Shown one piece after another: positions 3,514 to 25,991 of a stretch of DNA of 64,000 nt. The translations under genes and the position numbers were made by a program. Positions within the stretch are counted from its first letter, which is position 1. Every line of letters begins with the position of its first letter. Location of the stretch: positions 1,178,001 through 1,242,000 of the forward strand of contig NZ_LT629802.1 in the NCBI RefSeq assembly GCF_900106045.1, written 5' to 3'. This DNA is from Pseudomonas mucidolens (GTDB lineage Bacteria; Pseudomonadota; Gammaproteobacteria; Pseudomonadales; Pseudomonadaceae). The notes beneath the pieces are model-generated. The model did no database searches. It was not told the origin of the DNA and worked only from the letters and a program-made list of their open reading frames with translations.

Positions 3514-3521
3514 TTGCGTTT

Positions 3522-5601: not shown

Positions 5602-7056
5602 CTATGAAGGCGGTAGGGATCCAGCGACGGCGGATGCTGGAAAAAACATCATCGGCTCATTCGGTGGATGCTCGTAGGTTGAGGACAATACGGCGCTGAG
5701 TCGATCGCCCAACAGATTCCAGGCGCGTTTCTTCTCTTCGGCATAGTCGTGATGCAGGTAGTGGCGTCTCACCCGAGAGCCGGCCAGCACATGGTTTTGA
5801 CAGCGATCGATGACGTCCAGGCTGACACTCAAGGCCTGCATCATGGTCGCTCCCGTTCTGCGCAGGTCATGCGGTGTCCAGTCACCGTTCTGGCCGTTGG
5901 CAAGGACCAGCGTATCGTCATGACGCCGCCTAGAGAGGGCCTTGCGGTTTTTGAACCGCGCCTGGCGATCGCCGACCTGTTTACTCACCACCTTCACGTC
6001 CACATGTCTGTCATCCTGTTTGTTCGGAAAGCACCATTGGGAGTCTCCCGTCAGGGTTTTGAGCTCCTGAAAGAAATAAAGGGCAAAGGGGGAGAGGAAG
6101 ACATGGTGGTCCTGTTTCTTGCCCCGGGTACCTTTGACGTTTTCACTAGGGAGGAACCAGGTTTGCTGTTCCAGATCGACATTTTTCCATTCGGCCTGGA
6201 GCAACTCGCCAATCCGGCACAAGGTGCCCAGGCTGATCCAGAGCGCGAGCTGCGTTTCCTTCTTTAGCGGTCGAATGCCGTCGTATTTTTGGCCCGCGGG
6301 GAGGGCGTCGTAATCGGCGGTCATTTGCTGGAAGCGGTTGTGCAGTTCCAACAGCTCAGCCGGCGAAAGAATGCGGCTTCTTTCCGCTTCGTAGTCGGCC
6401 GGGATCAATGGGGAGATGTCGACCAGTTCCGTCGGATCACCCTCAACCAGTAACGCCCGCCAAGGTTGGCGCTTTCTAGCCCAGCTGAACATCTGGGTGA
6501 GGTCGGCGAAAAAGCTGATGGCTTGCCGGTGAGCGCCGCGGTTGACCACGGCGCGGATCAGCGCCCGAACATCGTGTTCGGAAACATTGTTCACCGCGGT
6601 CTTGCCGAGTGCCGGAAAAAGGTCCTTGTTAAAGCGTCGTTGCAATTCAGCATTGCCATCTTTCCGCGCCACGCCATCCAACAGCCACGCCTTGGCCAGA
6701 TCCTGGACGGTCAGCGTTTTCACCTTCGTCATTTTTACTTGTTCAGCCTCTACGTTAGCAGCGGCGTATGCCTGTGCCTTGGCGGTTTTCTTGTGCTCGT
6801 TGGGATTGATTTGCTCATCAATGAGTGCCCGTGCCTGGTTGCGGGCCTTGCGGATGTCCGTCAGGGATTTGCGTGGCCAGGACCCGCAGGCGTATTCTTT
6901 GTTCTGGTCGCCCCACCGATAGCGATAGAAAAAGCTGACCGACACGCCGTCCTTACGCAGGGAAATTCGACCTGCGAGATTGCCATCTTCCCGGAGGATG
7001 CGGCCGGCATCGTTGGCGGTCAGCGACTCGAGTTCTCTGATGGTAATTTTGGCCAT
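5602..7056 (-). CDS. Tyrosine-type site-specific integrase (P4-like, genomic island)
   Basis: A 484-residue tyrosine recombinase with an N-terminal arm-binding domain, a core-binding helical domain (about 100-210) and a C-terminal catalytic domain. Catalytic residues are visible: Arg in LCRIGELL, the HDLRRT box, a later His in CQNHV and the nucleophile region RRHYLHHDY. ATG at 7056 is preferred over the upstream ATG at 7086 because a G-rich ribosome site (AGGGGGAG) precedes it and two other copies in the window share the MAKITI start. The gene's 5' end faces a tRNA-Pro 3' fragment 160 bases away, the normal position for an integrase of an island inserted in a tRNA gene. It is the only intact integrase here and may still act on the three att copies. 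Confidence 0.92.
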   Translation of the reverse strand: MAKITIRELESLTANDAGRILREDGNLAGRISLRKDGVSVSFFYRYRWGDQNKEYACGSWPRKSLTDIRKARNQARALIDEQINPNEHKKTAKAQAYAAANVEAEQVKMTKVKTLTVQDLAKAWLLDGVARKDGNAELQRRFNKDLFPALGKTAVNNVSEHDVRALIRAVVNRGAHRQAISFFADLTQMFSWARKRQPWRALLVEGDPTELVDISPLIPADYEAERSRILSPAELLELHNRFQQMTADYDALPAGQKYDGIRPLKKETQLALWISLGTLCRIGELLQAEWKNVDLEQQTWFLPSENVKGTRGKKQDHHVFLSPFALYFFQELKTLTGDSQWCFPNKQDDRHVDVKVVSKQVGDRQARFKNRKALSRRRHDDTLVLANGQNGDWTPHDLRRTGATMMQALSVSLDVIDRCQNHVLAGSRVRRHYLHHDYAEEKKRAWNLLGDRLSAVLSSTYEHPPNEPMMFFPASAVAGSLPPS

Positions 7057-7261
7057 GAAACGGACTCCCCCTACTTTTACCCCCACAAAAACGTCGGCTC
7101 TTGATGGACGTTACTGGACTCTCGTAGAGCAGAACGCCGCTGGAGCTCAAGTAAATACTAGCTTAGAAAAATCCAGAGTAAAATTTTGGAATCTTTCAAG
7201 AAGTATAAAAAAGGAGATGGGGTGCTAGGGGTCGAGTGTTCGAATCACTCCGTCCCGACCA
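7054..7261. repeat. Island right-end repeat, copy 1
   Basis: A 208-bp sequence from the integrase ATG to the end of the tRNA-Pro fragment. It is repeated at 15638-15845 and 25758-25965 with the same length and no insertions or deletions, only scattered substitutions. It holds the integrase promoter region and the attachment site, so it marks the right end of an integrated element lying to its left. Confidence 0.85.
7217..7261 (+). other. att site: 3' part of tRNA-Pro(GGG), copy 1
   Basis: The 45 bases match the 3' part of a tRNA. Counting back from CCA gives discriminator A73, acceptor strand CGTCCCG, T-stem GAGTG/CACTC with loop TTCGAAT, variable loop GGGTC, and T33 followed by anticodon GGG and G37. 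The 5' half is absent (the bases before it do not pair), so this is not a gene but the duplicated tRNA end left by integration. It is identical to copy 3. Confidence 0.85.
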
Positions 7262-7357
7262 TATAATTCAAAGGGTTGCGAGATTTTATCTCGCGACCCT
7301 TTTTTATTTTTATGCGTTTTTACCTCTACAAAATCACTGGCTCTCAGTGGAACCTTC
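7262..7357. repeat. Island left-end repeat, copy 1
   Basis: The bases right of att copy 1 match those right of att copy 2 (15846-15943): first about 45 nearly identical bases including a terminator, then a diverged stretch with CTACAAA and GTGGAA blocks in common. This marks a shared left end, showing that the cassettes starting at 7262 and 15846 descend from one type of element. Confidence 0.7.
7271..7306 (+). terminator. Rho-independent terminator after att copy 1
   Basis: A 12-bp stem (AGGGTTGCGAGA pairing with TCTCGCGACCCT, one G-T pair), a TTTTA loop and a run of T. It lies directly behind the tRNA end, so it could end transcription of a tRNA once restored at this site. Confidence 0.85.
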
Positions 7358-7489
7358 AAAAGAGAGGGAAGCCGCTGACGCTGACGCTGATGCGATGGTT
7401 CCCTAAGTGTCGTTTCGAGTGGGTTTAGTTCTATCATGAGCTAGCGTTCATGCATGCTCTGTTCCGATCACTCGCCGGATATTGCCCTT

Positions 7490-8395
7490 ATGAGAGACCT
7501 GCCGCCCACCGCGACCTTGCGCGCATTTGAAGTTGCCACCCGGCACTTGACCTTCACTTCAGCCGCACAGGAGCTACATGTTACTCAAAGCGCGGTCAGT
7601 CACCAGCTCAAGCATCTCGAGGCGCTTTGGGGGCTGCAGTTATTTGAACGTGGCAAGGCGTTACGCCTCACGGCAGCGGGGGTGGCGCTGGCGCCCATCG
7701 TGCGGGAGTTTTTCATGAGCCTGGAGGCGACTTTGGGTAATCTGCGCGAGCAAAAAGGCAGGGTTCGACTCAGCGTCAGCACCACCTATTCCTTCGCGCT
7801 CAAGTGGCTGCTGCCACGTTTGCCGCGTCTCTCTCGCCAGCACCCCGAACTGCTGGTCTCGCTGGACACCACGGATAAATTCATCCACTTCTCCCCCGGC
7901 CAGGCTGATGTTGCGATCAGGCTCGGTAAGGGCAATTACCCTGGCCTGTATTCGGAGTTCCTGTTCGGGGAGCAGGTATTTCCTGTGGCCAGCCCCGAAC
8001 TATTACGAAGCGTTGGGACACCACAGAGCCCCGCAGAGTTGTTGCATTTTCCGTTGCTGACTCGGGATGGTGCCGAGCTGGTGCCAAAGTGGGAGGTGTG
8101 GTTTCAAGCCGTCGGGCTGGCCTATTTACCGCTCAGGGAAAGCGTCAGGTTTGGCGATACCAACATGACTGTCGAGGCGGCCTTGCTCGGCCAAGGTGTC
8201 GCGTTGGTGCGCAGCGGACATGTCGAGAATGAAATCTGCGATGGCCGTTTGGTGCGGCTGTTCGATGTAGCGTTCCCATCGCCGCTTGCATACTACTTCG
8301 TCTGCCCCAAGGGGATCGAATCTCAGCCTCATATCGCCAGCTTTCGCCACTGGTTAGTCAGTGAGGCGTTGAAGGTACAACGCGTAGAACCGTAG
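7490..8395 (+). CDS. LysR-family regulator (GcvA-like)
   Basis: A 301-residue LysR protein. The N-terminal HTH runs over residues 6-65 (TLRAFEVATRHLTFTSAA, then TQSAVSHQLKHLE), and the periplasmic-binding-like effector domain follows. The PTATLRAFE opening is characteristic of the GcvA group. An upstream in-frame ATG exists at 7454, but ATG 7490 fits the family N-terminus. It is the first gene of the cassette bounded by att copies 1 and 2 and lies 74 bases before an EamA exporter on the same strand. It probably regulates the exporter and SDR genes. Confidence 0.88.
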   Translation: MRDLPPTATLRAFEVATRHLTFTSAAQELHVTQSAVSHQLKHLEALWGLQLFERGKALRLTAAGVALAPIVREFFMSLEATLGNLREQKGRVRLSVSTTYSFALKWLLPRLPRLSRQHPELLVSLDTTDKFIHFSPGQADVAIRLGKGNYPGLYSEFLFGEQVFPVASPELLRSVGTPQSPAELLHFPLLTRDGAELVPKWEVWFQAVGLAYLPLRESVRFGDTNMTVEAALLGQGVALVRSGHVENEICDGRLVRLFDVAFPSPLAYYFVCPKGIESQPHIASFRHWLVSEALKVQRVEP

Positions 8396-8469
8396 GTCAT
8401 GAGCATCTACTCATGCTGCGATGAGGAGACTTCTCTTTAGTCCCGGCACCGGACTACCTACAGTGGCGC

Positions 8470-9297
8470 ATGCCTATTCATCTCATCTTCCTAGTCCTTT
8501 TCGCCGCGCTCCTGCATGCGAGCTGGAACGCGCTGCTGCGTAGCGGTGCCGACCGGCTGTGGGCCATGACGGTGATGTGTATTGCCATTGCAATGGTCTG
8601 TATCGTCGCCGCAGCTTTCATGGCGCCACCCGCAGTTGAAAGCTGGAGCTATGCGCTGCTTTCGGGGTTGCTGCATGTGGGCTACAACTTGTTCCTGGTA
8701 CGCAGTTACCGAGTCGGCGACCTGGGGCAGATCTATCCGATTTCACGCGGATCGTCGCCGGTGCTGATCGCCTTGGGTGCAGCCATTTTTGCCGGAGAAA
8801 GAATCACGCCGGGCGAGTTGCTCGGTGTTGCGCTGGTGTCAGGTGGGATTATTTCGTTGGCCTTCAAAGGGCGCAGTCTGTCGGTTCCCAGCTTGCCCTA
8901 TGCACTGGGAACAGGCTGCTTCATTGCGGCCTACAGCGTTGTCGACGGCATCGGCGCCAGGCTATCCGGCGCGCCGCTTGCCTACACCGTGTGGATGTGC
9001 GCGCTGTGGGGCGTGCTGATGCCGGTGGTCTACATCGGCCTACGTGGCCCGCGCAGCTTATTCTCCGTCCGGCCAGGAATCGTTACCGCTATGGTTGGCG
9101 GACTGGTCTCTTTGCTTGCGTATGCAATGGTCATCTACGCCATGAACGAAGCGCCGCTGGGCGCGGTCTCCGCATTGCGCGAAACCAGCGTGCTGTTTGC
9201 GTTGCTGATCGGTTATGCGTTCCTTGGCGAGACGCTCACCGCGCGCCGGATACTGGCATGCGTCGTGATTGCCAGCGGCACCCTCATCATTGGCTGA
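8470..9297 (+). CDS. EamA/DMT-family inner-membrane transporter
   Basis: A 275-residue protein that is almost entirely hydrophobic, with about ten predicted transmembrane helices arranged as two EamA repeats. The second repeat carries the usual LGETLTARRI motif near the C-terminus, and the first has FAGERITPGEL. Drug/metabolite transporters of this kind export amino acids, metabolites or toxic compounds. It lies between a LysR gene and a short-chain dehydrogenase (30 bases downstream), suggesting one transcription unit. The substrate is unknown. Confidence 0.88.
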   Translation: MPIHLIFLVLFAALLHASWNALLRSGADRLWAMTVMCIAIAMVCIVAAAFMAPPAVESWSYALLSGLLHVGYNLFLVRSYRVGDLGQIYPISRGSSPVLIALGAAIFAGERITPGELLGVALVSGGIISLAFKGRSLSVPSLPYALGTGCFIAAYSVVDGIGARLSGAPLAYTVWMCALWGVLMPVVYIGLRGPRSLFSVRPGIVTAMVGGLVSLLAYAMVIYAMNEAPLGAVSALRETSVLFALLIGYAFLGETLTARRILACVVIASGTLIIG

Positions 9298-9326
9298 CTT
9301 GGCCAACTGCTCAGGAGGTAGATTCA

Positions 9327-10088
9327 ATGATCAACGTCTCAAAGGCACCGCTGATCCTGATCACCGGTGGAAGTCGTGGAGTGGGAGCGGCCACCGCCCG
9401 GCTAGCTGCCGCACGCGGCTATGACGTTGCTATCAGCTACGTTGCCAACGAGTCCGCAGCGTTGGCGGTGGTTGCGGATGTGCAAGCATTGAGGCGCAGC
9501 GCGTTGGCTGTGCGGGCCGACAGTGCGGACCCGCAACAAGTCTACGATTTGTTCGCAGCCATCGACCACTCGTTCGGACGCATCGACGTCCTGGTCAATA
9601 ACGCCGGGATGCTGGCGCCTCAGTCGCGTCTGGAGGACCTCGGCTTCGAGCGGATGCAGCGCATCTTTGCGGTCAATGCCATTGGGCCAATACTCTGTGC
9701 TCAGCAAGCGGTGAAGCGCATGTCTTACCGCCACAACGGCCCGGGAGGCGTGGTGATCAATGTCTCATCGGCCTCGGCGCGCCTTGGCAGCCCCAATGAG
9801 TACGTCGACTATGCGGCGTCAAAGGGCGCCTTGGAGACCTTCACCCTTGGATTTGCAAAGGAGGTGGCCCGGGAGGGGATACGCGTCAACTGCATTCGCC
9901 CCGGACATATCTATACCGACATGCACGTCAGTGGCGGTGAGCCGGGGCGGGTCGATCGTGTCAAGGACTCGATCCCCATGGGGCGGGGCGGTCAGCCCGA
10001 GGAAGTGGCACGGGCGATTCTATGGCTCGCCAGCGCGGAGGCGTCATTTGTTACCGGTACATTCCTCGACGTGACGGGTGGTAAATGA
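9327..10088 (+). CDS. Short-chain dehydrogenase/reductase (SDR)
   Basis: A classical 253-residue SDR: nucleotide-binding TGGSRGVG at residues 13-20, NNAG near residue 92, catalytic Ser in INVSSASA, and the YAASK pair near residue 168. The start is fixed by a strong AGGAGG 8 bases before ATG 9327. It is an NAD(P)-dependent alcohol or ketone oxidoreductase of the FabG/glucose-1-dehydrogenase type. It is co-directional with the EamA gene and convergent with the next AraC gene. Confidence 0.9.
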   Translation: MINVSKAPLILITGGSRGVGAATARLAAARGYDVAISYVANESAALAVVADVQALRRSALAVRADSADPQQVYDLFAAIDHSFGRIDVLVNNAGMLAPQSRLEDLGFERMQRIFAVNAIGPILCAQQAVKRMSYRHNGPGGVVINVSSASARLGSPNEYVDYAASKGALETFTLGFAKEVAREGIRVNCIRPGHIYTDMHVSGGEPGRVDRVKDSIPMGRGGQPEEVARAILWLASAEASFVTGTFLDVTGGK

Positions 10089-10125
10089 GCCAGGGGCTCG
10101 GATTATCGACTCCTTGCGCGCGGTT

Positions 10126-11094
10126 TCAAGTCGCAGCGGACTGCTTAACCTTACGACTCAAACCCGGTGTCTTGCCCGTAATGCGCTTGAATGCACGACT
10201 GAAAGCGGCCTGGGATGTATAGCCCAAACGCTGCGCCACCTCTTCAATCGGCAGCCTTTCGAGGGTCAACCATTGGCTCGCAAGCCGCATTCGCAGTTCG
10301 GTGACGTAGCGCAGCGGGGTCATGCCAATCGTCACCTGGAAGCGCTCCGCGAAGACCGAGCGTGAGGTATTGCAGTGGTCGGCCAACTGCGCAACGGTCC
10401 AGTCGCGGCCCGGTTGTTGATGGAGCGCAAGCAGTGCACCAGACAAGCGTGGATCGCGCAAGGCGGCGACCAGGCCAGAAGCATTCCCGCAGGCGCACTC
10501 GACCCAACCGCGAACGACCATGGCAGCCACCACGTCAGCCAACCGCGCGAGGATCCCGGCGAAGCCGACACGGGCGGCGCTGACCTCGCGTTCCATGGTG
10601 GTCAGTATCGGCACCAGCCCGGGGTAACGCTGACCGCCGGCATCAATCAGCATGAGGCCCGGCATCAGCCGGCCAAGGCCATGAATACTACCCATTTCAA
10701 ACTCCATGCAACCGCTGAACAAAATAGTGCTCGGCGTGGGGCTGGCATCGGTGCCGGTATCCACCGCGCTGACGGTGTCACCTAAGGGCGCGCCGTCTAG
10801 ACGATCAATGTCCTGAACAGGCGCGTCCGGATGGGAAAACAGCTGATGAGCTGCGCCGTGGGAGATGAACACGGCGTTGCCGGCAGACAACGCGTAGGTG
10901 CTGCCGTCCTCCATTCGCAATACCGCATTGCCGACGGCCAGGAAGTGGAACCAGGCGTGCCCAGGTTTTTCCGCGAAACTCAATCCGAAAGTTGGGCCCG
11001 CTTGGATACGCCGGTATTCAACGCCACGCAGGCGCATGCCGCGCAATAGCTCGTTGATGAGGTCCGAGGAAAGAGCAAACTGATCTGCAGGCAT
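10126..11094 (-). CDS. AraC-family regulator with cupin domain
   Basis: A 322-residue protein with an N-terminal cupin_6 ligand domain (about residues 15-200) and a C-terminal double HTH (WTVAQLADHCNTSRSVFAER, then EEVAQRLGYTSQAAFSRAF). It is divergent from the MFS gene at 11196, with about 100 bases between them, so it most likely controls that exporter and the genes after it. Confidence 0.88.
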   Translation of the reverse strand: MPADQFALSSDLINELLRGMRLRGVEYRRIQAGPTFGLSFAEKPGHAWFHFLAVGNAVLRMEDGSTYALSAGNAVFISHGAAHQLFSHPDAPVQDIDRLDGAPLGDTVSAVDTGTDASPTPSTILFSGCMEFEMGSIHGLGRLMPGLMLIDAGGQRYPGLVPILTTMEREVSAARVGFAGILARLADVVAAMVVRGWVECACGNASGLVAALRDPRLSGALLALHQQPGRDWTVAQLADHCNTSRSVFAERFQVTIGMTPLRYVTELRMRLASQWLTLERLPIEEVAQRLGYTSQAAFSRAFKRITGKTPGLSRKVKQSAAT

Positions 11095-11195
11095 CGTTCA
11101 GGTGTTTTAGTCAAAAAGTAGAGACTTTGGATCATAGATCATCCAGTTTTCGGCGCCTAGACTTCGGCTCGCAATGAAGATTGGGAGATCGTGCA

Positions 11196-12446
11196 ATGAC
11201 TGACTGTGTATGTAACGCCGTATCCGACTGCCATCCCGGCGTCGGCGCGGACGTAGAGCCTGCGACGCCCGCGTGGATGGCCGTCTTCTCGTTGGCAATG
11301 GGTGTGTTCGGGTTACTGACCGCTGAGTACCTTCCGGCCAGTTTGTTGACGCTGATGGCTACCGACCTGGGAGTGTCCGAAGCGCTGGCTGGCCAGGCGG
11401 TAACGGTGACAGCCGTCGTGGCGTTGTTCGCTGGCTTGTTGGTGCCAGGCCTGACCCGCAGCATCGACCGACGTTGGGTGTTGCTGGGTTTTTCCACGTT
11501 GATGGTCGCCTCGAATCTGTTGGTCGCCATTTCCTCCAGCTTCGCGGTGCTGTTGTTGATGCGCATCTTGCTGGGCATTGCCCTTGGCGGGTTCTGGAGC
11601 ATGGCGGCGGCGGTAGCGATGCGCTTGGTGCCGAATGCTTTGTTGCCTCGGGCGCTTTCGATCATTTTCAGCGGTATTGCCATCGGGACGGTAGTTGCAG
11701 TGCCGCTGGGCAGTTATCTGGGCGGGTTATATGGCTGGCGCAGCGCGTTCTTTGCAGCGGCGGCGGTCGGCATAGTGACCCTGGCTTTCCAGTCGTTCAC
11801 TCTCCCGCGCCTTGCGCCGCGCCGGCCGGCACGCCTGCGCACCGTGCTCGAGGTGTTGCAGCGCCCGGGCATTGCCATGGGCATGTTCGGTTGCGTGCTG
11901 GTGCACAGCGGGCACTTCGCGATGTTCACTTACGTTCGGCCATTCCTAGAAGGGACTACCGGCATCGGCACGCAAGGGCTGTCGCTGATGTTGCTGGGGT
12001 TCGGTGTGGCGAACTTCGTCGGCACGCTGTTAGCCGGGAGGTTGCTGGAGCGCCACCCTCTGGCCACTCTGGTGTTGATGCCCGCGCTGGTCGGCGTCGC
12101 AGCACTGCCGTTGGTGCTGTTGCCGGCGTCGGTGCCGGGGCAGGCGGTACTGCTGGCGATCTGGGGCCTGGCCTTTGGTGGTGTGCCGGTGGCGTGGTCG
12201 AACTGGGTCGCCCGAGCGGTACCTGATCAGGCGGAAAGCGCCGGAGGCATGGTGGTGGCATCTGTGCAGTCCGCCATCGCAACGGGCGCGGCCGCTGGCG
12301 GTGCAATGTTCAGCCTCGGAGGCAGTGCAGGCGTATTCGTAGCGGCGGCCGTGCTAATGCTGCTGGCCGCGTTGCTGATTGCACTGCGTGTCCGAATCCC
12401 TTCTGCGCATGGTATTCGCCAGTCCAAGCCCGCGTTGCACCTTTGA
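11196..12446 (+). CDS. MFS transporter, DHA1-like (AraJ/YdhP type exporter)
   Basis: A 416-residue carrier with 12 predicted helices after a hydrophilic N-terminus of about 25 residues. LTAEYLPASLL near residue 45 corresponds to the conserved helix-1 motif of the AraJ/SotB/NepI group. ATG 11196 follows TGGGAG and gives the normal family length. Divergent from the cupin-AraC regulator. It probably exports a small metabolite or drug. Confidence 0.87.
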   Translation: MTDCVCNAVSDCHPGVGADVEPATPAWMAVFSLAMGVFGLLTAEYLPASLLTLMATDLGVSEALAGQAVTVTAVVALFAGLLVPGLTRSIDRRWVLLGFSTLMVASNLLVAISSSFAVLLLMRILLGIALGGFWSMAAAVAMRLVPNALLPRALSIIFSGIAIGTVVAVPLGSYLGGLYGWRSAFFAAAAVGIVTLAFQSFTLPRLAPRRPARLRTVLEVLQRPGIAMGMFGCVLVHSGHFAMFTYVRPFLEGTTGIGTQGLSLMLLGFGVANFVGTLLAGRLLERHPLATLVLMPALVGVAALPLVLLPASVPGQAVLLAIWGLAFGGVPVAWSNWVARAVPDQAESAGGMVVASVQSAIATGAAAGGAMFSLGGSAGVFVAAAVLMLLAALLIALRVRIPSAHGIRQSKPALHL

Positions 12447-12495
12447 TCCGGTTTTTCAAACCGCTTCGATCCCGTCCGTATTCAGGAGATACACC

Positions 12496-13845
12496 ATGAA
12501 CAATACGACGTCTCACCAAGGACGCCTCAAATCGTTGCGCGCGGCAGGTATCGGCAATGCGCTCGAATGGTTTGACTGGACCCTGTACGCAACTTTTTCG
12601 GTGTACCTGGCAAGCAATCTGTTCGACAAGACCGATGCGCGCTCGGCGATGCTCTCGACCCTTGCCGTGTTTGCGGTTGGCTTTGTCGCTCGCCCTGTGG
12701 GCGGATGGATGTTTGGCCGACTGAGTGACCGACTGGGGCGGCGGACCATCATGGTGATCACCATGCTGCTGCTTGCGATCAGCAGCCTTGGCATCGCGCT
12801 TATCCCTGATTACCAGAGCATCGGCCTGTATGCCTCGGTCGCGCTGCTGTTTTTCCGCCTGATGCAGGGGCTCGCCCATGGCGGCGAGACAGGGGTGTCC
12901 TACACCTATGTCGCAGAGATCGCCCCAAGCAAACACCGTGGCTTATGGTCGAGTTCCGTTTATGTGGGGGTGACGCTGGGAGTGATGGCAGCAACGGCCG
13001 TGGCGGCGTTGCTGACTTGGCTGCTGGGCGCGCAGGCCATGGGTGACTACGGCTGGAGGATCGGTTTCGCCATTGGTGGAGTACTGGGTATTTATGCGCT
13101 GTTTTTGCGCCGTAGTGCGCAGGAATCTCATGTGTTCGTAGAGCAGCAGGGGCAAGCGCGGCCGCCGCGCAAGCTGTCCGTAGGGGAGATGCTACGCGTC
13201 GCGCGTAACATCGTCATGCTTGCAGCGGCCGCCAATGTCACTTACTACGCGTGGGTCACGTTCGGCGCTTCGACGGCGATTGCCCAAGGTATGGACGCCA
13301 CAGGTGCCTATGTGGCCAGCCTTCTCGCGCAGATCCTCTGCGTGTGCTGGTTGCCGGTCTGCGGAATGTTGTCCGATCGGGTAGGACGCCGGCCCATGGT
13401 CATCGCCTGGGGCCTTGGTGTGATCGTGCTGACCTATCCCATCTCGATAATGGTGACCACTGAACCCTACACGCTGTTCCTAGCCCAGGTGCTGGGGCTA
13501 GGCGCCTGGTCGTTGATCGCGGCGATTTTCCCTGCAGTGCTGTCCGAGCAGGTGCCGACCCAGGCACGGGCGCAGGGCGTCGGTTTGGTCTCGTCGGTTT
13601 CAGTGGCGATCTTTGGCGGCACCGCCCCTTATCTACACAACTATCTTAGCGGCGCCGACCTTGGCTACCTCTACGTCAGCTATGTCATCGGGTTGGGAAT
13701 AGTCACTGTCCTGGCAGGGTTTCTTATCGACGAAACGGCGGGCATGGACCTTGCGCACATCGAGGCGCCTGGCGTTCGAGTCAGCGTAAATACATTGGCT
13801 GGTCGAGCCGCAGAATCAGCCGAACAAAGGAGTGCGACTCTATGA
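12496..13845 (+). CDS. MFS metabolite:proton symporter (MHS family, ShiA/KgtP-like)
   Basis: A 449-residue 12-helix carrier with strong MHS features: the opening GIGNALEWFDW, the loop 2-3 motif GRLSDRLGRR and the second-half equivalent LSDRVGRRP. CAGGAG precedes ATG 12496. Members import organic acids such as shikimate, 2-oxoglutarate or citrate with protons. The last four bases overlap the start of the dimethylformamidase-like gene (ATGA), so carrier and enzyme are translationally coupled, and the carrier probably brings in that enzyme's substrate. Confidence 0.9.
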   Translation: MNNTTSHQGRLKSLRAAGIGNALEWFDWTLYATFSVYLASNLFDKTDARSAMLSTLAVFAVGFVARPVGGWMFGRLSDRLGRRTIMVITMLLLAISSLGIALIPDYQSIGLYASVALLFFRLMQGLAHGGETGVSYTYVAEIAPSKHRGLWSSSVYVGVTLGVMAATAVAALLTWLLGAQAMGDYGWRIGFAIGGVLGIYALFLRRSAQESHVFVEQQGQARPPRKLSVGEMLRVARNIVMLAAAANVTYYAWVTFGASTAIAQGMDATGAYVASLLAQILCVCWLPVCGMLSDRVGRRPMVIAWGLGVIVLTYPISIMVTTEPYTLFLAQVLGLGAWSLIAAIFPAVLSEQVPTQARAQGVGLVSSVSVAIFGGTAPYLHNYLSGADLGYLYVSYVIGLGIVTVLAGFLIDETAGMDLAHIEAPGVRVSVNTLAGRAAESAEQRSATL

Positions 13846-17463: not shown

Positions 17464-18786
17464 TTACGGCTTGGTGCCAAGTTCCTGGGCGAGCTTGTCG
17501 CGATCCAGTTCTTTTTCCCACGCTGAGACAACCAGCGCGGCGACACCGTTACCCACCAGGTTAGTCATGGCGAGTCCGGTGCCCATGAAGCGGTGGATAC
17601 CCAGAATCAACACCATGCCCGCCACCGGTACAAGCGGCACCACCATCAAGGTGCTGGTCAGCATGACAAAGGCGGCGCCTGACACACCGCTGGCACCCTT
17701 AGAGGTGAGCATGGCCACGATGACTAACGTCAGTTGTTGAGAAAGTGACAGGTCGATGTTCAGCGCTTGAGCGATGAAGAGCACCGACATCGTCAGATAG
17801 ATGTTGGTACCGTCGAGGTTGAAGGAGTAGCCGGTGGGAATGACCAGCCCGACGACAGGTTTGGAGCACCCGAGTCGCTCCATCTTTTCCATGATCTGCG
17901 GCAGCACCACTTCCGATGAGCTGGTGCCAAGCACGACCAGCAACTCCTCTTTGATGTAAGCGATAAAGCGCAGGATGCTGAACCCGCAAACTTTCGCCAC
18001 GCCACCCAACACCACGATGACAAACAATGCACACAGGATATAAAAACTGCCGACCAGTTTCATCAGCGGCAGGAGCGCACCGACACCGTAAGTACCGACG
18101 GTGAAAGCGATGGCGCCGAACGCGCCGATGGCGGAAAGCTTGGCGATGATGTGCACAATGCGAAAGAACACGCCGGACAGCCCTTCGATCATGTCGTAGA
18201 CCGGTTTGCCTTTCTCGCCCATGGCTGACAGTGCGCACCCGAAGAGCACGGAGACCAGCAATATGCAAAGCACGTTACCTTCTGCAAACGCCTGCACAAA
18301 CGTCGAGGGAATGATTCCCATCAGAAATTCGACCATGTGCATGTGCTGAGCCTTCTCGGCGAAACCAGTGACCGCCGACGCGTCCAGCGAATTCACATCC
18401 ACATTGAAACCTGCACCTGGACTAAACAGGTGACCACCGATAAGGCCGATCAGCAGTGAAACAGTGGAGATGACTTCGAAGTAGAGCAGTGCTTTCCCTC
18501 CGACTCGACCCACTTTTTTCAAATCGCGCATACCGGCGATGCCGGTAACGACTGTGCAAAAAACCACAGGGCCGATAATCATCTTGATCAGCTTGATGAA
18601 CGCATCGCCCAGCGGCTTGAGGTCGGCAGCAAATGTGGGCCAGAAGTGTCCGACGGCGACTCCCGCGATAATCCCCAAAAGGACTTGAAAGTACATCGCG
18701 CGATAGAAGGGCGGCTTAGTCTTCACCTTGATAGGAATGCTTACGTTTACCTGAGCAGATGCAGGACTGGGGTTCATGGCGTTCAC
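17464..18786 (-). CDS. DctA-type dicarboxylate:cation symporter (DAACS family)
   Basis: A 440-residue inner-membrane carrier with eight helices and two re-entrant loops. Hallmarks are the serine-rich GTSSSE loop (near residue 285) and the substrate/cation site FNLDGTNIY (near 320). The family imports C4-dicarboxylates or glutamate. DctA itself is about 440 residues. Its place between an OprD porin and a 2-pyrone-4,6-dicarboxylate hydrolase suggests a dicarboxylic pyrone or oxalomesaconate-type substrate instead of succinate; that is inference from context. Orthology to the housekeeping dctA is not assumed. Confidence 0.9.
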
Positions 18787-18830
18787 TCACTGAAAGTCTT
18801 ATTTTTGGAGGTGCAGCAAAGGTGTTGCGC

Positions 18831-19694
18831 TTAGCGTCCGTATAGCTTCATCGGGTTATCGATCAGCAGTTTTTGACGCAGCAGAGGATCGGTACAGAAG
18901 TCGAACATCAGGTCAACCAGCTCGCCGTCGTTGGGCATATCTTTACTAATGTTCGGATGCGGCCAATCAGTGCCCCACAGGACGCGTTCCGGCGCTAGCT
19001 CAATCAGCTTCTGCGCGAACGGAACGGCATCTTCGAATGGTCGCCGCCCGACCGATACACGCTCTGCGCCACATACCTTGACCCACGCCAGCGGATTTTC
19101 CATCAGTTGCTGCAATGCCAGGAAGGACTGCTGCTCAATACCATCCTGCGCTTTGACGCGACCCATATGGTCGATGATGAAAGGTACGGGTATCCGCGCC
19201 AATCTGTCCGCATAGGTCAGGATGTCCTGTGCATCAAGGTGCAGGACGACATGCCATCCCAAATCCGCAAGGCGGTCCACTGTGCTATCAAAGACGTCCA
19301 GATCGGGTGCGCCACCCAGGTGTGCAACGAAGTTGAACCGCACGCCACGAACACCTCCAGCGTCCATCTCGGCAAGGTATTCATCGGTCTCACTACCGTC
19401 AACGATTGCTACGCCTCGATACCGTCCTTCACTGCGAGCGATAGCGTCCAACATCGCGCGATTGTCACTTCCGTGACAACTGGCCTGGACAATTACACCG
19501 CGAGTGAATCCCAAGTGGTCGTGCAATGCCCGTAACGTTTCAAACGGGGCGTCTGGCGGGGTATAGCTACGATCTTCTGCATAAGGGAAGTCAGCCGCAG
19601 GGCCGAAAACGTGGCAGTGAGCATCCCAAGCGCCCACAGGAAGTGGCTGCTTTGGTTTTGTAGGATTGGCGTCAGGGGCGAGGCAGGTTTTCAT
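18831..19694 (-). CDS. ligI: 2-pyrone-4,6-dicarboxylate hydrolase (LigI)
   Basis: A 287-residue amidohydrolase. The N-terminal HCHVFGP (H26 and H28) and the C-terminal GTDWPHPN (Asp243, the expected general base) are the signature of LigI/PmdD, which hydrolyse 2-pyrone-4,6-dicarboxylate to 4-oxalomesaconate without a metal. The C-terminus DNPMKLYGR also fits. It feeds the GalD/GalB/GalC steps encoded just upstream. The gene lies between DctA-like and LysR genes on the same strand. Confidence 0.88.
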   Translation of the reverse strand: MKTCLAPDANPTKPKQPLPVGAWDAHCHVFGPAADFPYAEDRSYTPPDAPFETLRALHDHLGFTRGVIVQASCHGSDNRAMLDAIARSEGRYRGVAIVDGSETDEYLAEMDAGGVRGVRFNFVAHLGGAPDLDVFDSTVDRLADLGWHVVLHLDAQDILTYADRLARIPVPFIIDHMGRVKAQDGIEQQSFLALQQLMENPLAWVKVCGAERVSVGRRPFEDAVPFAQKLIELAPERVLWGTDWPHPNISKDMPNDGELVDLMFDFCTDPLLRQKLLIDNPMKLYGR

Positions 19695-19807
19695 CTCGTG
19701 TCCTTTAGTTATCGTTAGCGGAAGCGATAGCCGATGGTGGCCGTCTCGACGCCTTACAACAACAAGACACAGGCTCTAGCAGTTATGCGGATTTTGCATG
19801 CATCTAT

Positions 19808-20692
19808 TCAGTCTATGCAGATCTCACGAACCAATGACATTGTCTGTTCTGCTAGGCGAGACAGCGGACGCTGCTCAAACGTGGCGATAAATAAGTGTGT
19901 CTGGATGGACGGATCAACGATCTGTGCAGCTTTGAGTCCTTCGAGCTTCCCGTCGCCGTTTGCCAGAGCCGAGCGAAACAGTACGCCGTAGCCCATGTTG
20001 AGATTGATCAGCTCCAATAGCGACGGGATGCTATCGACCTCCAGGCAAACATTCAGATGCACCTCATGCCTCGACGCTTCATTCTCGATGAGGCGGCGTA
20101 TGGAGTGAGGTTCGCTGGGAGTGATTAAAGGGTATTGGCCCAAGTCTTTCATCGATACCTGGGAAGGGAGGTTGGAGTGCTGGCTACCTATGAGCATCAA
20201 TGGTTCTGAGTGGATGTGCTCATATTGCAGTTGTGCGCTGTGGCCAGGATTGAAGAGCAGTGCGAAATCCAGGCGACCCAGAAGCAGCCACTCGCGCATC
20301 GAATGAGTCAGGCCTTCCTTGATCCCCAATATGCAGTCAGGAAAGCGCTCTCGGAAGGCAGAGACCACTGCCACGGTGTGGCGCCGGGAAATACTGGGAG
20401 GAAGCCCGACCACTACCTTGCCAGACAATGTGTCGCGTTGTTCGCGCAGGTCTTCACGCGCCACCTGCACCTGCCGCAAGATGCCTTTGCCATGATCGAA
20501 CAAGCGTTGCCCGGAAGCGGTCAGTAAGACGCCTCGGCCATTTCGCAAGAGCAGATGCTCCTGCAGTTCGACCTCAAGCTGCCTGACCTGACGGCTAACG
20601 ACCGACTGAGAGATGTTCAGTACGGCGGCGGCCTTGGTGAAGCTTCCGAACTCGGCCACCCGTACGAAACATTCGAGCTGTTTTAGATCCAT
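19808..20692 (-). CDS. LysR-family regulator
   Basis: A 294-residue LysR protein with a standard N-terminal HTH (LKQLECFVRVAEFGSFTKAA, then SQSVVSRQVRQLE) and a full effector domain. It sits between the dehydrogenase gene (28 bases upstream) and ligI (about 110 bases downstream), all on the minus strand, so it may be co-transcribed with the gal-like operon or drive the ligI-dctA-porin part. It is unlike the second, longer LysR at 24340. Confidence 0.88.
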   Translation of the reverse strand: MDLKQLECFVRVAEFGSFTKAAAVLNISQSVVSRQVRQLEVELQEHLLLRNGRGVLLTASGQRLFDHGKGILRQVQVAREDLREQRDTLSGKVVVGLPPSISRRHTVAVVSAFRERFPDCILGIKEGLTHSMREWLLLGRLDFALLFNPGHSAQLQYEHIHSEPLMLIGSQHSNLPSQVSMKDLGQYPLITPSEPHSIRRLIENEASRHEVHLNVCLEVDSIPSLLELINLNMGYGVLFRSALANGDGKLEGLKAAQIVDPSIQTHLFIATFEQRPLSRLAEQTMSLVREICID

Positions 20693-20719
20693 GAATGCGA
20701 CTCTGGGAAAAAGGCTATG

Positions 20720-21643
20720 TTACCGCTTTTCCCGGACAGTGCTTTCATGAGCGATTGGACTGCCATACACCGTGTCGATCAGGTTTATCCAGTCGAATGG
20801 CTCAAGGTGTGAGTAATCAATATCGGCATCAAGCATGGCATCGACGAGCCCGAGCTGAGCGCTGACGATGGCTTGGCTCATGTTCGGAACCACGTCGACG
20901 TCGCGAGCGGTTTTTGCGACCTCTTTCATTTCCTCTGCGCGACGCCGACCGTGCTCGGCCACGCGACTGATCAAGTAGTGGGGTAGGGCGCCGTCCCAAC
21001 CCATCTGCGGAAAACTCTGGTGCAGTGACGCCAGCACCTCACCCTCGGCATGGTACTGGCGAGCGGTACTCAGACATTCAGTGGTGAGTGCTTCCAGGCC
21101 TTTGATCATGATGCTTCGACACATCTTTATCGCTGACGCTACGCCAATCACATTAGCCACTACCCGCACGTTCATGCCTAGCCCGCTTAATCGTTCAGCG
21201 ACCAAGGTGGCGTGTTGGCCGCCTAACAGGATGGGTGTTTTCAAGCGTTGTGGTGGTACCGGCGCCATGACTGCGGCATCAATGTAATCGACGCCATGCA
21301 GCTCCATCGCTTTGGCTGCTGCCCGCTTCGTAGAGGGCGCCACCGAGTTGATGTCGATAAACAGTTGTCCGGGCTTCATCAGTGGCGCCGCGTTCAGTGC
21401 GACTTCGAGTGCGTTATCCGCTGTGACGGCTGAAATGATCCACTCGCCAAGCGCTGTCGCTTGAGCCGCACCCTCGCACAGTTGAACGCCACACCGCTGG
21501 GCTTTTTCATGCAGCGCGGCTCGTTTGGCCGGGTCTTCAAGGAGTCGATCATAGGCGTAGATCCTCACGCCCTGTGCTGCAAGATCCTCGCCCAGAATGG
21601 CACCGGCTTCGCCGAAGCCGATCATAGATACGGTCGTGGTCAT
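20720..21643 (-). CDS. NAD(P)-dependent dehydrogenase, 6PGDH-like with DUF1932 C-terminal domain
   Basis: A 307-residue beta-hydroxyacid-dehydrogenase-type protein. The Rossmann motif GFGEAGAILG is at residues 8-17, a substrate loop around FIDINSVAPSTKR near 95, and the DUF1932 helical domain (IKMCRSIMIKGLEALTTE) carries a conserved Lys. ATG 21643 is chosen because it overlaps the galD stop (TAATG); the open frame upstream is spurious. Coupling to galD places it in the pathway, but the gallate/PDC route as known does not need this enzyme after ring cleavage. It might oxidise a semialdehyde or hydroxy acid feeding into the pathway, or be a reductase for a keto acid intermediate. Function not established. 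Confidence 0.8.
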   Translation of the reverse strand: MTTTVSMIGFGEAGAILGEDLAAQGVRIYAYDRLLEDPAKRAALHEKAQRCGVQLCEGAAQATALGEWIISAVTADNALEVALNAAPLMKPGQLFIDINSVAPSTKRAAAKAMELHGVDYIDAAVMAPVPPQRLKTPILLGGQHATLVAERLSGLGMNVRVVANVIGVASAIKMCRSIMIKGLEALTTECLSTARQYHAEGEVLASLHQSFPQMGWDGALPHYLISRVAEHGRRRAEEMKEVAKTARDVDVVPNMSQAIVSAQLGLVDAMLDADIDYSHLEPFDWINLIDTVYGSPIAHESTVREKR

Positions 21644-22740
21644 TACGATTTCACCGTTTTTTGCCAGACGTCGCCAGGAATGAGCACGTTGCCTTCGAAC
21701 AACAGCCGTGCCGTGCGCACCAACCCGCAACCGGCTAACTGACCGTCAATTACACGCAGCTCCACCGTGAACTCGCCGGTTGGATGCTCGACAGACAATT
21801 GGACTCGATCACCTGCTTCTACTTGGGCCAAACTGCTCGCGACTGTCCCTTGAATCAGGCAGGCAGAGGCGACACTGACAGCGCCGAACACCCCTATAGA
21901 TGTGTGACAGCGGTGAGGAATGAAGGTACGGCTGCCAATAGCGCCTCCGTTGCGGGGGGCTGCTATCAGGGACATTTTCGGTACTGTGCGATCGCGCACA
22001 TCCCCCAGATTCATCAACGGGCCCGCCTGCAGCCGGATCGATTCCAGCAACGCTTTGAGCGCCATGTTGGCGTCCAGTTGCTCGGGGTTTTCATCGCCCG
22101 TGCACCCCACATCAGTCGCCCTGATCAGCACAACAGGCATTCCATTGTCGATACACGTCACTTCAATGCCATCGAAGCGGTCAATGGCATTTCCGGTAGG
22201 CAAGAGCGCTCCGCAACTGGAGCCGGCAATGTCTTCGAACTCGACAATCAGAGGAGCACTGGTGCCAGGAACTCCATCGATGCGGGTATCCCCTGCGTAC
22301 TCGACGATGCGACCTGGTGTGCGGACGTTAGCCACGGCGATCTGGCCGGTGTTCATCATGAAAATCCGTACGGTCGTCAGCGATTCGTCTGCGCTGATCA
22401 GCTCTCGCTCGATTGAAAAGGGGCCGACGCCGGCAAGGATGTTTCCGCAATTCTGGCCGTAATCAACTTGAGCGTGTTCGACTGAAACCTGAGCAAACAG
22501 ATAATCGACATCAGCATCCGGGCGATCTGAACGGCTGATGATGGCGACCTTGCTGGTCAGCGAATTTGCTCCCCCGATGCCATCTATCTGGCGTGCATCG
22601 GGTGAGCCCATGACGGCCAGTAATACTTGATCACGCAGCTTACCTTCAGGCGGCAGATCGTCAGCCAGGAAGTAAGCGCCCTTGGATGTACCTCCACGCA
22701 TCATGAGGCACGGAATTCGGGTCTGGCGCATGAAGGTCAT
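21643..22740 (-). CDS. galD: 4-oxalomesaconate tautomerase (GalD, PrpF family)
   Basis: A 365-residue PrpF-like isomerase. It has the N-terminal MRGGTSKGAYF (near residue 15), the DGIGGANSLTSK block (near 55), and the catalytic-site motif DYGQNCGN (near 94). GalD in P. putida converts the keto form of 4-oxalomesaconate to the enol used by GalB. PrpF methylaconitate isomerase is the alternative, but the GalB and GalC neighbours decide. The start overlaps the galC stop by four bases (ATGA), and the stop overlaps the next start, indicating tight translational coupling. Confidence 0.88.
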   Translation of the reverse strand: MTFMRQTRIPCLMMRGGTSKGAYFLADDLPPEGKLRDQVLLAVMGSPDARQIDGIGGANSLTSKVAIISRSDRPDADVDYLFAQVSVEHAQVDYGQNCGNILAGVGPFSIERELISADESLTTVRIFMMNTGQIAVANVRTPGRIVEYAGDTRIDGVPGTSAPLIVEFEDIAGSSCGALLPTGNAIDRFDGIEVTCIDNGMPVVLIRATDVGCTGDENPEQLDANMALKALLESIRLQAGPLMNLGDVRDRTVPKMSLIAAPRNGGAIGSRTFIPHRCHTSIGVFGAVSVASACLIQGTVASSLAQVEAGDRVQLSVEHPTGEFTVELRVIDGQLAGCGLVRTARLLFEGNVLIPGDVWQKTVKS

Positions 22741-23453
22741 CCTTGCAGGTCTGTGAGGCTGTCGTAGTAAGTCAGGCCCCGGTCGACGAGCTTCTGACGC
22801 ATCTCATAGATATCCAGCCCCAATTCGCCGGATGCCAGGCGCACCCGTTTCTGCTCTTCGATTCGAGCGCGTTTTCGGCTGGTTTCAAACACGCCGGGTA
22901 ACTCTTCGCGGCGAACAATGACCACGCCGTCATCGTCAGCCACTACGACGTCACCGGGCTCGACCAACTGGCCGGCGCAGATGATCGGTATGTTGACCGA
23001 GCCCAGGGTTTCCTTGACCGTGCCTTGGGCATGAACCGCTCGCGACCATACCTTGAAGCCCATGTCCCGCAGCGTCCGGGTATCGCGTACCCCGGCGTCA
23101 ATGATCAGGGCCCGTACCCCTCGGGCCATCAACGAGGTGGCGAGCAAGTCGCCAAAGTAGCCATCGGTGCATGGCGACGATGTCGCGACCACCAGAATGT
23201 CGTCGGGTTGGCACTGTTCGACGGCTACGTGAAACATCCAGTTATCGCCCGGCGCGACCAACACGGTCACCGCCGTTCCGCTGATGCTCTGGTTCTGCTG
23301 GATGGGACGAATGGCCGAATCCAAAAGACCTTTGCGTCCTTGGGACTCATGCACGGTGGCAACGCCGAAGCGATCCAGTTCGTCGATCAGTGCCGAGTCA
23401 GCACGGGGAATATTACGTACCACAATGCCGGTTTTTCCGATCGGTGTGCTCAT
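22737..23453 (-). CDS. galC: 4-carboxy-4-hydroxy-2-oxoadipate aldolase (GalC, RraA-like)
   Basis: A 238-residue class II pyruvate aldolase of the RraA-like HMG/CHA family, the same length as known GalC. The active-site region LLATSLMARGVRALIIDAG followed by RDTRTLRD gives the Arg and Asp that hold pyruvate and the divalent metal. It splits 4-carboxy-4-hydroxy-2-oxoadipate into pyruvate and oxaloacetate, the last pathway step. Its ATG overlaps the galB stop by four bases. Confidence 0.88.
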   Translation of the reverse strand: MSTPIGKTGIVVRNIPRADSALIDELDRFGVATVHESQGRKGLLDSAIRPIQQNQSISGTAVTVLVAPGDNWMFHVAVEQCQPDDILVVATSSPCTDGYFGDLLATSLMARGVRALIIDAGVRDTRTLRDMGFKVWSRAVHAQGTVKETLGSVNIPIICAGQLVEPGDVVVADDDGVVIVRREELPGVFETSRKRARIEEQKRVRLASGELGLDIYEMRQKLVDRGLTYYDSLTDLQG

Positions 23454-24184
23454 GCCAGATTCTCCGTCACCCGTGGGAAGAGGCTTTGGTAGCCCTCGGC
23501 ATATACGATGTTACGGGTAGAGGCGATACCCACATTGCGCTTGGCCTGTACACCGCGTTGCAGGGCGACACGGGTGTAGTATTCCCAGAGATGCTCCTGG
23601 CCCGCCATGCACTGGATGGCGGCGTATTTCTTGTCCCAGACCTCGGTGATGTCCAACAGCACATCCGGGCGCCATTCGCATTGCTCGGGCTGATGGGGTT
23701 CGAAGCTGTAAACGGGTGGGGCACCCACAATTTTTTCGCCAGGCTTGTAGCCTTCGGCCTGAGCGATGATGCGGGCTTCCTGCGTCAGGTTCATCGCCAG
23801 CGGGTGATCGTAGTTGTAGGGGTCTTTGATCGAGTGACTGAGGACGAACTCCGGTTGCACGCGACGAAACACATCGGCCAAACGAAACAGTGTCTCTTTA
23901 TCGGCGCGCATCGGGTAGTCGCCGATGTCGAAGAATTCCACGCTCGCGCCAAGTATCTCCGCTGCGGCTTCAGCCTCGCTGCGACGCGCGGTTTTGACCT
24001 TGTCTTCAGACATCTCGCCTTTGCGCCAGAGCTTGGCCGACTCACCTCTTTCGCCATAGGACAAGCACACGATGTGTACGGCATAACCTTGTTGGGTGTG
24101 CAGGGCGATGGCGCCACCTGCGCGCCAGACGAAATCGGCAGAGTGGGCGCTGACGACTAATGCAGTTTTTGTTTTATTGATCAT
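23450..24184 (-). CDS. galB: 4-oxalomesaconate hydratase (GalB, PIG-L/LmbE family)
   Basis: A 244-residue PIG-L-fold protein. The metal motif is AHSADF (near residue 13) in place of the usual AHPDDE, as in GalB hydratases, with a second ligand in NYDHPLAM (near 125) and the GalB-typical CMAGQEHLWEYY towards the C-terminus. ATG 24184 (MINKTK) is chosen; the frame upstream to 24229 lacks similarity. It hydrates 4-oxalomesaconate to 4-carboxy-4-hydroxy-2-oxoadipate. First gene of the galB-C-D-dehydrogenase operon, divergent from the LysR at 24340. Confidence 0.88.
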   Translation of the reverse strand: MINKTKTALVVSAHSADFVWRAGGAIALHTQQGYAVHIVCLSYGERGESAKLWRKGEMSEDKVKTARRSEAEAAAEILGASVEFFDIGDYPMRADKETLFRLADVFRRVQPEFVLSHSIKDPYNYDHPLAMNLTQEARIIAQAEGYKPGEKIVGAPPVYSFEPHQPEQCEWRPDVLLDITEVWDKKYAAIQCMAGQEHLWEYYTRVALQRGVQAKRNVGIASTRNIVYAEGYQSLFPRVTENLA

Positions 24185-24339
24185 CGAAGGGCTCTTCTTG
24201 CGGCTGTTTGATAGCACCCACAGTCGCATTTGAGGGGGAGGTTGAATAATGCGTTCGGCGGCAATAGGTATGCGTTTTACTTATCGGGATGAGTTATGCA
24301 TGCTGTGCACCCGCTTTCTCGAAAACTCGGCAGGTAGGC

Positions 24340-25551
24340 ATGCACAGTCCTGAGTTGCCCAATTTGATGCAGGTTCGCGCGTTCCTTCGCGTTGTCGAAT
24401 ACGGCAGCGTATCCAAGGCATCTGCCGTGCTATTTCGTGCACAGCCTGTCGTGACACGCGCCATCCTGGCGCTGGAGAAGCGCCTCGGCGTCTTGCTGTT
24501 CGAACGCACCGTCAATGGTATGCGTCTGACCAATTACGGAGACCGTGTCATTCCTCGGGCTCGCCGGGCCCTGGAGGAATTGCTAGCCGTTCCGTCTTTG
24601 CTGGGGCACTCCGCCGAGCCGCTTTACCTGTTCCAGAACCGCCGCCTGGAAATGTTCGCGAAACTCTGTGAAACCCACCATATGCAAACCACGGCGAGTG
24701 CCCTAGGCGTTTCGCAGCCTGCGATCAGTGCCGCTATCAAAGTGCTGGAGCAGGGCAGTGGTGCGGGCCTGTTTGAACGCACGCCCCACGGTTTGCTGCC
24801 GACCCGCGCGTGCCTTGCAATGTTGCTGCGAGTGCGGCGAGCACTGAATGAACTGCGTCACATCGATGCGGACATCGCCGCGTTGAGTGGTTCCCTTCAA
24901 GGTGCCGTGCACGTGGGGGCCTTGCCGCTCGGGCGCACGGGAATACTGCCAGAAGCCATCGTGCGCCTGACCCTGGAACACCCCCACGTACGAGTCGTCA
25001 CAAACGAAAGCCCGTTTGACCTGCTAGCCAGTGAAATGCGCGCTGGCGATGTGGATTTCGTACTCGGCGCTCTGCGCCCGTCGGTCTACGCCAGCGATCT
25101 GCATAGCGAAGCCTTGCTGCGGGAGGAAATGGTGATCCTGGTACGCCGCGACCACCCTTGGCTGGAGCGGACGCCTGTCTATGAGGACTTGAGTGCCGCC
25201 CGCTGGATCTTGCCTCGCGCCGGCTCTCCGGCACGGCAACTGCTAGACGCGTTTTTTGCCCACATCGGCATCGCCGCACCCAGCCCAGTGATTGAAACGG
25301 GCGACCTGGCGATTTTGCGCGGTGTGTTGCTGCGCTCAGACATGCTCGCTGCTGTTTCGGCGCATCAACTGGAACACGAAATGGTCAGCGGTGAGCTGGT
25401 GCGACTGCCGCTTTCCCTTAGCCACACCACGCGCCCCATTGGCCTGATCTCCAGAGCGGGGGCGTTTCAATCGCCTGCGGCGCAGGCGTTGATGGACAAG
25501 ATTCGGGAGGTGGTAGGAGAGGCGGCGATGAGAATTACAGAATCGACCTGA
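24340..25551 (+). CDS. LysR-family regulator with two tandem HTH domains (GalR-like)
   Basis: At 403 residues this is about 100 longer than a normal LysR. Two HTH_1-like units can be read: one at about 10-75 (MQVRAFLRVVEYGSVSKAS with LFERTVNGMRLT), and another at about 105-165 (MFAKLCETHHMQTTASALG with LFERTPHGLLPT). The effector domain follows from about 190. ATG 24340 follows CAGGTAGG; an earlier in-frame start at 24289 would add 17 residues. It is divergent from galB with about 150 bases between, so it probably senses a gallate-pathway acid and activates the gal operon. The tandem HTH is the odd feature. Confidence 0.85.
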   Translation: MHSPELPNLMQVRAFLRVVEYGSVSKASAVLFRAQPVVTRAILALEKRLGVLLFERTVNGMRLTNYGDRVIPRARRALEELLAVPSLLGHSAEPLYLFQNRRLEMFAKLCETHHMQTTASALGVSQPAISAAIKVLEQGSGAGLFERTPHGLLPTRACLAMLLRVRRALNELRHIDADIAALSGSLQGAVHVGALPLGRTGILPEAIVRLTLEHPHVRVVTNESPFDLLASEMRAGDVDFVLGALRPSVYASDLHSEALLREEMVILVRRDHPWLERTPVYEDLSAARWILPRAGSPARQLLDAFFAHIGIAAPSPVIETGDLAILRGVLLRSDMLAAVSAHQLEHEMVSGELVRLPLSLSHTTRPIGLISRAGAFQSPAAQALMDKIREVVGEAAMRITEST

Positions 25552-25599
25552 CGCAGGTTTGACCCCGACGTCGCCCCGCCATTCGCCAGCAAGGTGCAG

Positions 25600-25760
25600 T
25601 GCCTTGCGTATGTCAGTCAGGGATTTGTGCGGCCAGGAACCGCAGGAGTACTCTTTATTTTCTCCTGTCCCACCGATACCAATAGAAAAAGCTGACGGAT
25701 ACACCGTCCTTCATCATTGGCGGTCAGCGACTCGAGTTCCGTGATGGTGATTTTGGCCAT
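25600..25760 (-). pseudogene. Integrase 5'-end remnant at att copy 3 (frameshifted)
   Basis: From ATG 25760 the frame reads MAKITITELESLTANDEG, matching the intact integrase. About 20 codons are then missing and the match resumes in another frame (KEYSCGSWPHKSLTDIRKA, about 25600-25660), after which it ends. The gene is thus internally deleted, frameshifted and truncated. It marks the right end of the cassette 15846-25965. Confidence 0.85.
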
Positions 25761-25965
25761 GATATGGCTTCCCCTTACTTTTACCCCCTCAAAAACGCCG
25801 GCTCTTGATGGACGTTCCTGGACTCTCGTAGAGCAGAACACCGCTGGAGCTCAAGTAAATACTCGCTTGGAAAAATCCAGAGTAAAATTTTGGAAGCTTT
25901 CAAGAAGTATGAAAAAGGAGATGGGGTGCTAGGGGTCGAGTGTTCGAATCACTCCGTCCCGACCA
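25758..25965. repeat. Island right-end repeat, copy 3
   Basis: Third copy of the 208-bp sequence, same length as the others. The sequence to its right differs from that after copies 1 and 2, so this copy borders what is probably the original chromosome downstream of the tRNA gene. Confidence 0.85.
25921..25965 (+). other. att site: 3' part of tRNA-Pro(GGG), copy 3
   Basis: Identical over all 45 bases to copy 1. As the rightmost copy, followed by a different terminator, it should be the attR formed from the original tRNA 3' end; the complete tRNA-Pro(GGG) would then lie left of the window. Confidence 0.82.
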
Positions 25966-25991
25966 TATTTACTGAATAAAATCAGTCGCTT

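Follow-up and report, generated by a model that had tools for sequence, protein, structure and literature searches.

The 64-kb stretch of Pseudomonas mucidolens DNA analysed here (hereafter the window; C1:1178001-1242000 of genome G000, a single contig of 5.85 Mb) lies within a tandem array of genomic islands that very likely arose by repeated site-specific integration at a tRNA-Pro(GGG) gene, two of its units, E2 and E3, probably being trimmed remnants of larger elements. The array is ordered tRNA, E1 (41.2 kb), E2 (8.6 kb), E3 (10.1 kb) and E4 (51.5 kb). A prior sequence-only reading of the window had described three copies of a 208-bp end, at 7054, 15638 and 25758, built on a tRNA-Pro(GGG) site, with an intact integrase in the first and truncated integrases in the others; these observations are borne out, and its proposal of repeated integration with integrase loss in E2 and E3 is supported.

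The three right ends (c1, c2 and c3) share 196, 195 and 188 of 208 positions in pairwise comparison. The true copies are longer, extending past the 208 bp on one or both sides, and a repeat search of the window returned them as a single family (7014-7313, 15598-15897 and 25718-26017). A tRNA scan found no complete tRNA gene in the window, but a search of the whole genome with the right-end sequence gave six matches, one of which is a complete tRNA-Pro(GGG) (C1:1143955-1144031, assigned by ARAGORN) 34 kb to the left, the side on which the sequence-only reading had suggested looking for it. Positions 33-77 of this tRNA are identical to the 45-bp attachment (att) cores of c1 and c3, while the c2 core has four changes, one of which converts the final CCA into CAA. 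A fourth tRNA fragment, c4 (C1:1255414-1255459, 89%), lies 13 kb to the right of the window. Upstream of the full tRNA is a 792-codon frame, which we take to be PheT, and the sequence just upstream of the tRNA is matched in 36 of 36 genomes of the same genus (own included) at 73-100% identity. Distant from the array, shortly behind tRNA-Ser(CGA), the tRNA-Pro 3' end recurs as a 43-bp copy (93%; G000:C1:3485345-3485397). The features in the window are as follows.

1..7261, no strand: right-hand part of E1 (whole element C1:1144032-1185261), bounded by the full tRNA-Pro and c1
5602..7056, minus: intact tyrosine integrase of E1, 484 residues, with Phage_integrase, Arm-DNA-bind_3 and Phage_int_M domains
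7057..7216, plus: right end of E1, from integrase start to att core, conserved in other Pseudomonas
7217..7261, plus: att core c1, identical to tRNA-Pro(GGG) positions 33-77
7262..7345, plus: left end of E2, terminator hairpin and arm-like motif, matched by the DNA that follows the full tRNA and c2
7376..15533, no strand: E2 cargo (LysR, EamA, SDR, AraC, two MFS proteins and a dimethylformamidase-like subunit, from Pfam), its extent shared with genome G348 at 91.6%
15598..15640, minus: integrase stub of E2, 43 bp, only the start of the integrase remaining
15801..15845, plus: att core c2, four changes relative to the tRNA
15846..15927, plus: left end of E3, the family left end behind c2
16143..25551, no strand: E3 cargo (OprD, DctA-type transporter, amidohydrolase, LysR, dehydrogenase, 4-oxalomesaconate tautomerase, 4-carboxy-4-hydroxy-2-oxoadipate aldolase, PIG-L enzyme and LysR), present as a whole block in genomes G208, G095 and G210
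25591..25607, no strand: joint between E3 cargo and integrase stub
25600..25760, minus: integrase stub of E3, with a 53-bp internal deletion
25921..25965, plus: att core c3, identical to tRNA positions 33-77
25966..64000, no strand: left-hand part of E4 (whole element to C1:1255459), with a different left end

The full tRNA, c1 and c2 all precede the same left end, a terminator hairpin followed by an arm-like motif resembling ACCCCTACAAAA, and E1, E2 and E3 can therefore be assigned to one element family; the motif recurs in similar form in the right end. By contrast, c3 precedes a different left end, so E4 is of another kind. In the family, the integrase lies at the element end distal to the tRNA and is read inward. 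In E1 it starts with the ATG at 7056, is free of internal stops and has arm-binding, core-binding and catalytic domains, a set that is presumably P4-type; in the E3 stub the internal deletion shifts the reading frame. A Pfam scan covered 87 open reading frames, 82 of them inside the array (some perhaps not genes) and including part of those of E1 and E4, with E limits of up to 1e-3 for some sets and 1e-5 for others. Among these the integrase is the sole mobility protein, no relaxase or secretion domain was found, and the domains in E1 and E4 are mostly those of catabolic enzymes, transporters and regulators.

An element of this family has its left end directly after the CCA of the tRNA, and its right end comprises the inward-reading integrase, about 160 bp and then the 45-bp tRNA copy. 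On the proposed mechanism, the P4-type tyrosine integrase, presumably active, would recombine the tRNA end with the copy carried by the element, thereby restoring a complete tRNA, and later elements would insert at one of the att copies, leading to head-to-tail stacking. E1 has retained its integrase, whereas E2 and E3 would have entered as larger integrase-bearing elements, from which internal deletion may have removed the integrase and other DNA, with the catabolic cluster, perhaps retained by selection, and both ends being kept.

The family is widespread in Pseudomonas. Its right end was matched in at least 37 of 298 genomes of the genus (own included; E below 1e-40, with no more than two candidates scored in each genome, so that counts are lower bounds) and, on searching these 37 singly, 10 (own included) were found to have at least two right ends on one contig and strand. 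An exact search of GTDB contigs with a 22-base pattern, which may leave out records near the window's own, gave 73 stretches with 75 right ends, all in contigs titled Pseudomonas; since similar patterns in trials matched only about 27 of 33 known ends, this search misses ends. Sixty-four of the 75 have enough upstream DNA for the integrase to be assessed: the match is full-length and in one piece at 45 (internal stops not excluded), fragmentary at 14 and absent at 5. The family left end follows 28 of the 75, i.e. these are tandem junctions. The largest array, of about 308 kb (G275:C1:2301422-2609246), includes, all on one strand, a full tRNA and nine or more additional fragments, with left ends of at least three families. 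In genome G277 one element has, next to its complete right end, a second, partial one (G277:C1:4486985-4487122).

The arrival of E2 and E3 as larger elements and their subsequent trimming fits better than the accretion of integrase-less cassettes, in part because the E3 cluster is known from an element that has these ends and whose integrase is intact. Part of the E3 cluster is matched in 31 of 298 genomes (own included), many over core genes only; five such regions besides that in the window were retrieved, and the cluster is att-bounded only in G208. There, an element of about 20 kb has a left end, the E3 cluster (79%), an intact integrase (93.6%) and a right end. Past the last E3 gene about 50 bp are alike in G000 and G208, reaching to within a few bases of the integrase stub in G000, whereas G095 and G210 diverge from both at this joint. 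An 8-base word at the joint recurs at the cargo edge in G208, and the E1 integrase has seven of the eight bases at the equivalent position; as these seven are absent from the G208 integrase, deletion between short repeats as the route of integrase loss in E3 is a guess. With regard to function, the E3 DctA-type transporter (634 bits, cut-off 513), 4-oxalomesaconate tautomerase (535, cut-off 440) and 4-carboxy-4-hydroxy-2-oxoadipate aldolase (382, cut-off 179) exceed their cut-offs, while the amidohydrolase and dehydrogenase score under theirs. The cluster may encode the lower steps of a route for gallate or pyrone-dicarboxylate.

Trimming is likewise the better fit because the E2 cluster sits behind another tRNA-Pro with the family left end. 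The end of the E2 cluster, searched for in 398 genomes, was matched in 14 (own included); no att copy was found beside it in six retrieved genome regions. No E2 relative at tRNA-Pro was recognised among the first 298 genomes, one being revealed with 398. This is in G348, where the family left end lies directly behind a full tRNA-Pro and the E2 cluster follows 12 kb on, with a match to G000 that reaches slightly past both edges as compared with the six other regions. The G348 contig ends 41 kb behind the tRNA; 19 kb into a second contig lie an intact integrase and a right end, then an 11.4-kb unit that showed no integrase, and the two contigs probably join. In a further genome, G409, the tRNA and the E2 cluster behind it share a strand and are about 110 kb apart, with no att copy within the 20 kb retrieved around the cluster.

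A third reason to prefer trimming is the greater divergence of right ends in which the integrase is not intact: in the pattern-derived sample, which favours conserved ends, the median divergence from the consensus is 6.3% for those with a broken or missing integrase (n=19) vs 3.2% for the remainder (n=45), with p 1.8e-4, or 9.5e-4 without two outliers, statistics that ignore relatedness. Within the array, c1 differs from the right-end consensus at 4 of 156 positions, c2 at 10 and c3 at 9.

Several observations weigh against repeated integration followed by trimming. E1, E2 and E3 are equally diverged in their left ends, with 7, 8 and 6 changes in 77 positions and no trend. The E3 cluster of G000 is nearer to that of G095 (93%), for which no second att copy was found, than to that of G208. 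No empty tRNA-Pro(GGG) site, of the kind which the sequence-only reading had suggested seeking, was seen in the genomes compared. No integrase-bearing element with the E2 cluster was seen on one contig, that of G348 ending first. The idea that the intact integrase is nearest the tRNA, with more distant copies being older and more decayed, does not hold generally. In the five arrays with a tRNA and at least two family right ends on the same contig, it fits two (G000 and G277); two are opposite, G211 having one stop in the proximal integrase copy and G208 no integrase at the proximal end, with the distal integrase intact in both, and G275 has no intact family integrase. Position in an array is not a reliable clock of age, and the order of arrival in G000 can be proposed only tentatively; later elements may enter at other att copies.

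The sequence-only reading had suggested that cassettes could accrete modularly through a shared integrase. In a rival account of this type, E2 and E3 had no integrase on arrival and, as non-autonomous cassettes, are moved in trans by one such as that of E1. Both units keep their two ends and att cores, that of c3 being identical to the tRNA, the E1 integrase is intact, 19 of the 64 assessable right ends in named Pseudomonas are without a full-length integrase match, and G348 has its 11.4-kb unit without an integrase. The greater divergence of right ends without an intact integrase, the mutated c2 core and the relatives in G348 and, for E3, in the integrase-bearing, parent-like element of G208 argue for trimming instead, and no integrase-less unit was seen in two genomes, no systematic search having been made; we therefore regard movement in trans as improbable. 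It is similarly doubtful that minimal cassettes, each a single cluster flanked by about 100 bp of left end and about 210-370 bp of right end, circulate in Pseudomonas without integrases of their own and are stacked at tRNA-Pro(GGG) by the integrases of their neighbours.

The same catabolic clusters may instead have been captured repeatedly from different lineages, such that the G000 E3 and the G208 element are separate captures. The relative closeness of the G000 cluster to that of G095 (93%, vs 79% to G208; the corresponding pheT values are 88% and 86%) leaves room for this proposal. Clusters are also found away from tRNA-Pro, and flanks outside the cluster are unlike in nearly every pair compared, the exceptions being one short extra match each for G252/G208 and G282/G269. 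The likeness of G000 and G208, but not G095 or G210, from the last gene to the joint speaks against separate capture, which on balance appears unlikely. The sequence-only reading took a conserved gene order without att copies in relatives as evidence against its proposal; G095 goes part of the way, in that 22 kb separate its tRNA-Pro from the E3 cluster behind it and the stretch from 117 to 170 kb showed no other att copy. Local tandem duplication of the three ends in this chromosome, for which their shared orientation in one genome might speak, is most improbable given the nearest-neighbour comparison. Among 89 other ends, those nearest to c1 belong to other species (up to 98.6%), and c2 and c3 come at ranks 72 and 76; the nearest to c3 are likewise from other species (95.7%). 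The nearest end to c2 is indeed c1, but narrowly so (94.2 vs 93.8%), and the cargoes of E1, E2 and E3 are unrelated, with no further long repeat linking them.

No integrase was seen in E4, the open reading frames of which were scanned in part. At its left edge, right behind c3, only a fragment of an OprD porin gene gives a match (26067-26684). A 300-bp direct repeat of 71% identity is present at 46785-47084 and 60499-60798, the second copy lying inside an OprD porin gene, and a chaperone-usher fimbrial operon (G000:C1:1249123-1255242) occupies the right end of E4 directly before c4. That c4 marks the native right flank was considered and rejected: in G095 and G275 the sequence that follows c4 comes immediately after the tRNA, with an array lying beyond it in G275, so this sequence more probably represents the left end of a different element family. 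No native right flank of the array was found in the genomes compared.

The array belongs to a kind already known, combining tRNA-Pro(ggg) islands with tandem accretion and decay. In the part of the account consulted here, islands at tRNA-Pro(ggg) with a distal P4-type integrase are reported in 41 of 226 P. aeruginosa genomes (PMC8373256). Like the elements in P. mucidolens, these PAGI-97A-type islands insert at the 3' end of tRNA-Pro(ggg), have a direct repeat of that end and carry diverse cargo, and their P4-type tyrosine integrase at the tRNA-distal border corresponds to that of E1, as matched on position and domains (PMC8373256). The repeat is 49 bp in the PAGI-97A type vs 45 bp in c1 and c3, and tandem stacking and trimmed remnants, observed here, do not feature in those sections of the PAGI-97A description (PMC8373256). 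Matches of 49 bp to the tRNA do occur in other elements of G275. Elsewhere, in the sections consulted, a tRNA-Pro of P. fluorescens Pf-5 is listed as carrying a defective prophage (PMC2647930), and islands at other tRNAs are described (PMC9298801). No description of this family, or of its arrays outside P. aeruginosa, was found in literature in which subscription journals were scarcely covered.

Accretion after which elements decay, leaving att-bounded remnants, has been described (PMC5704250, from the portion consulted). E2 and E3 resemble the cis-mobilizable elements (CIMEs) of that account, which have lost their integration genes, keep their att sites and lie in tandem with an integrase-bearing element; E2 and E3 keep both att sites and have lost the integrase, although the c2 core is mutated. 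CIMEs are defined by descent from integrative and conjugative or integrative and mobilizable ancestors (PMC5704250); no conjugation gene was seen in the reading frames scanned here. From the sections consulted, the ssrA islands of Dehalococcoides are similar in that several stand in tandem behind one RNA gene, with catabolic cargo and an integration module in only some of them; they differ in using a serine recombinase, in targeting the tmRNA gene and in having the integration module next to attL (PMC3146451). To these systems the present work adds the spread of one family, in Pseudomonas contigs only, its frequent stacking (28 of 75 ends), an array of about 308 kb and pairs of parents and remnants. 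The family has recognisable ends, remnants with parent-like relatives carrying the same cargo make it possible to follow how a mobile pathway becomes fixed by trimming, and the mobility of trimmed units is directly testable.

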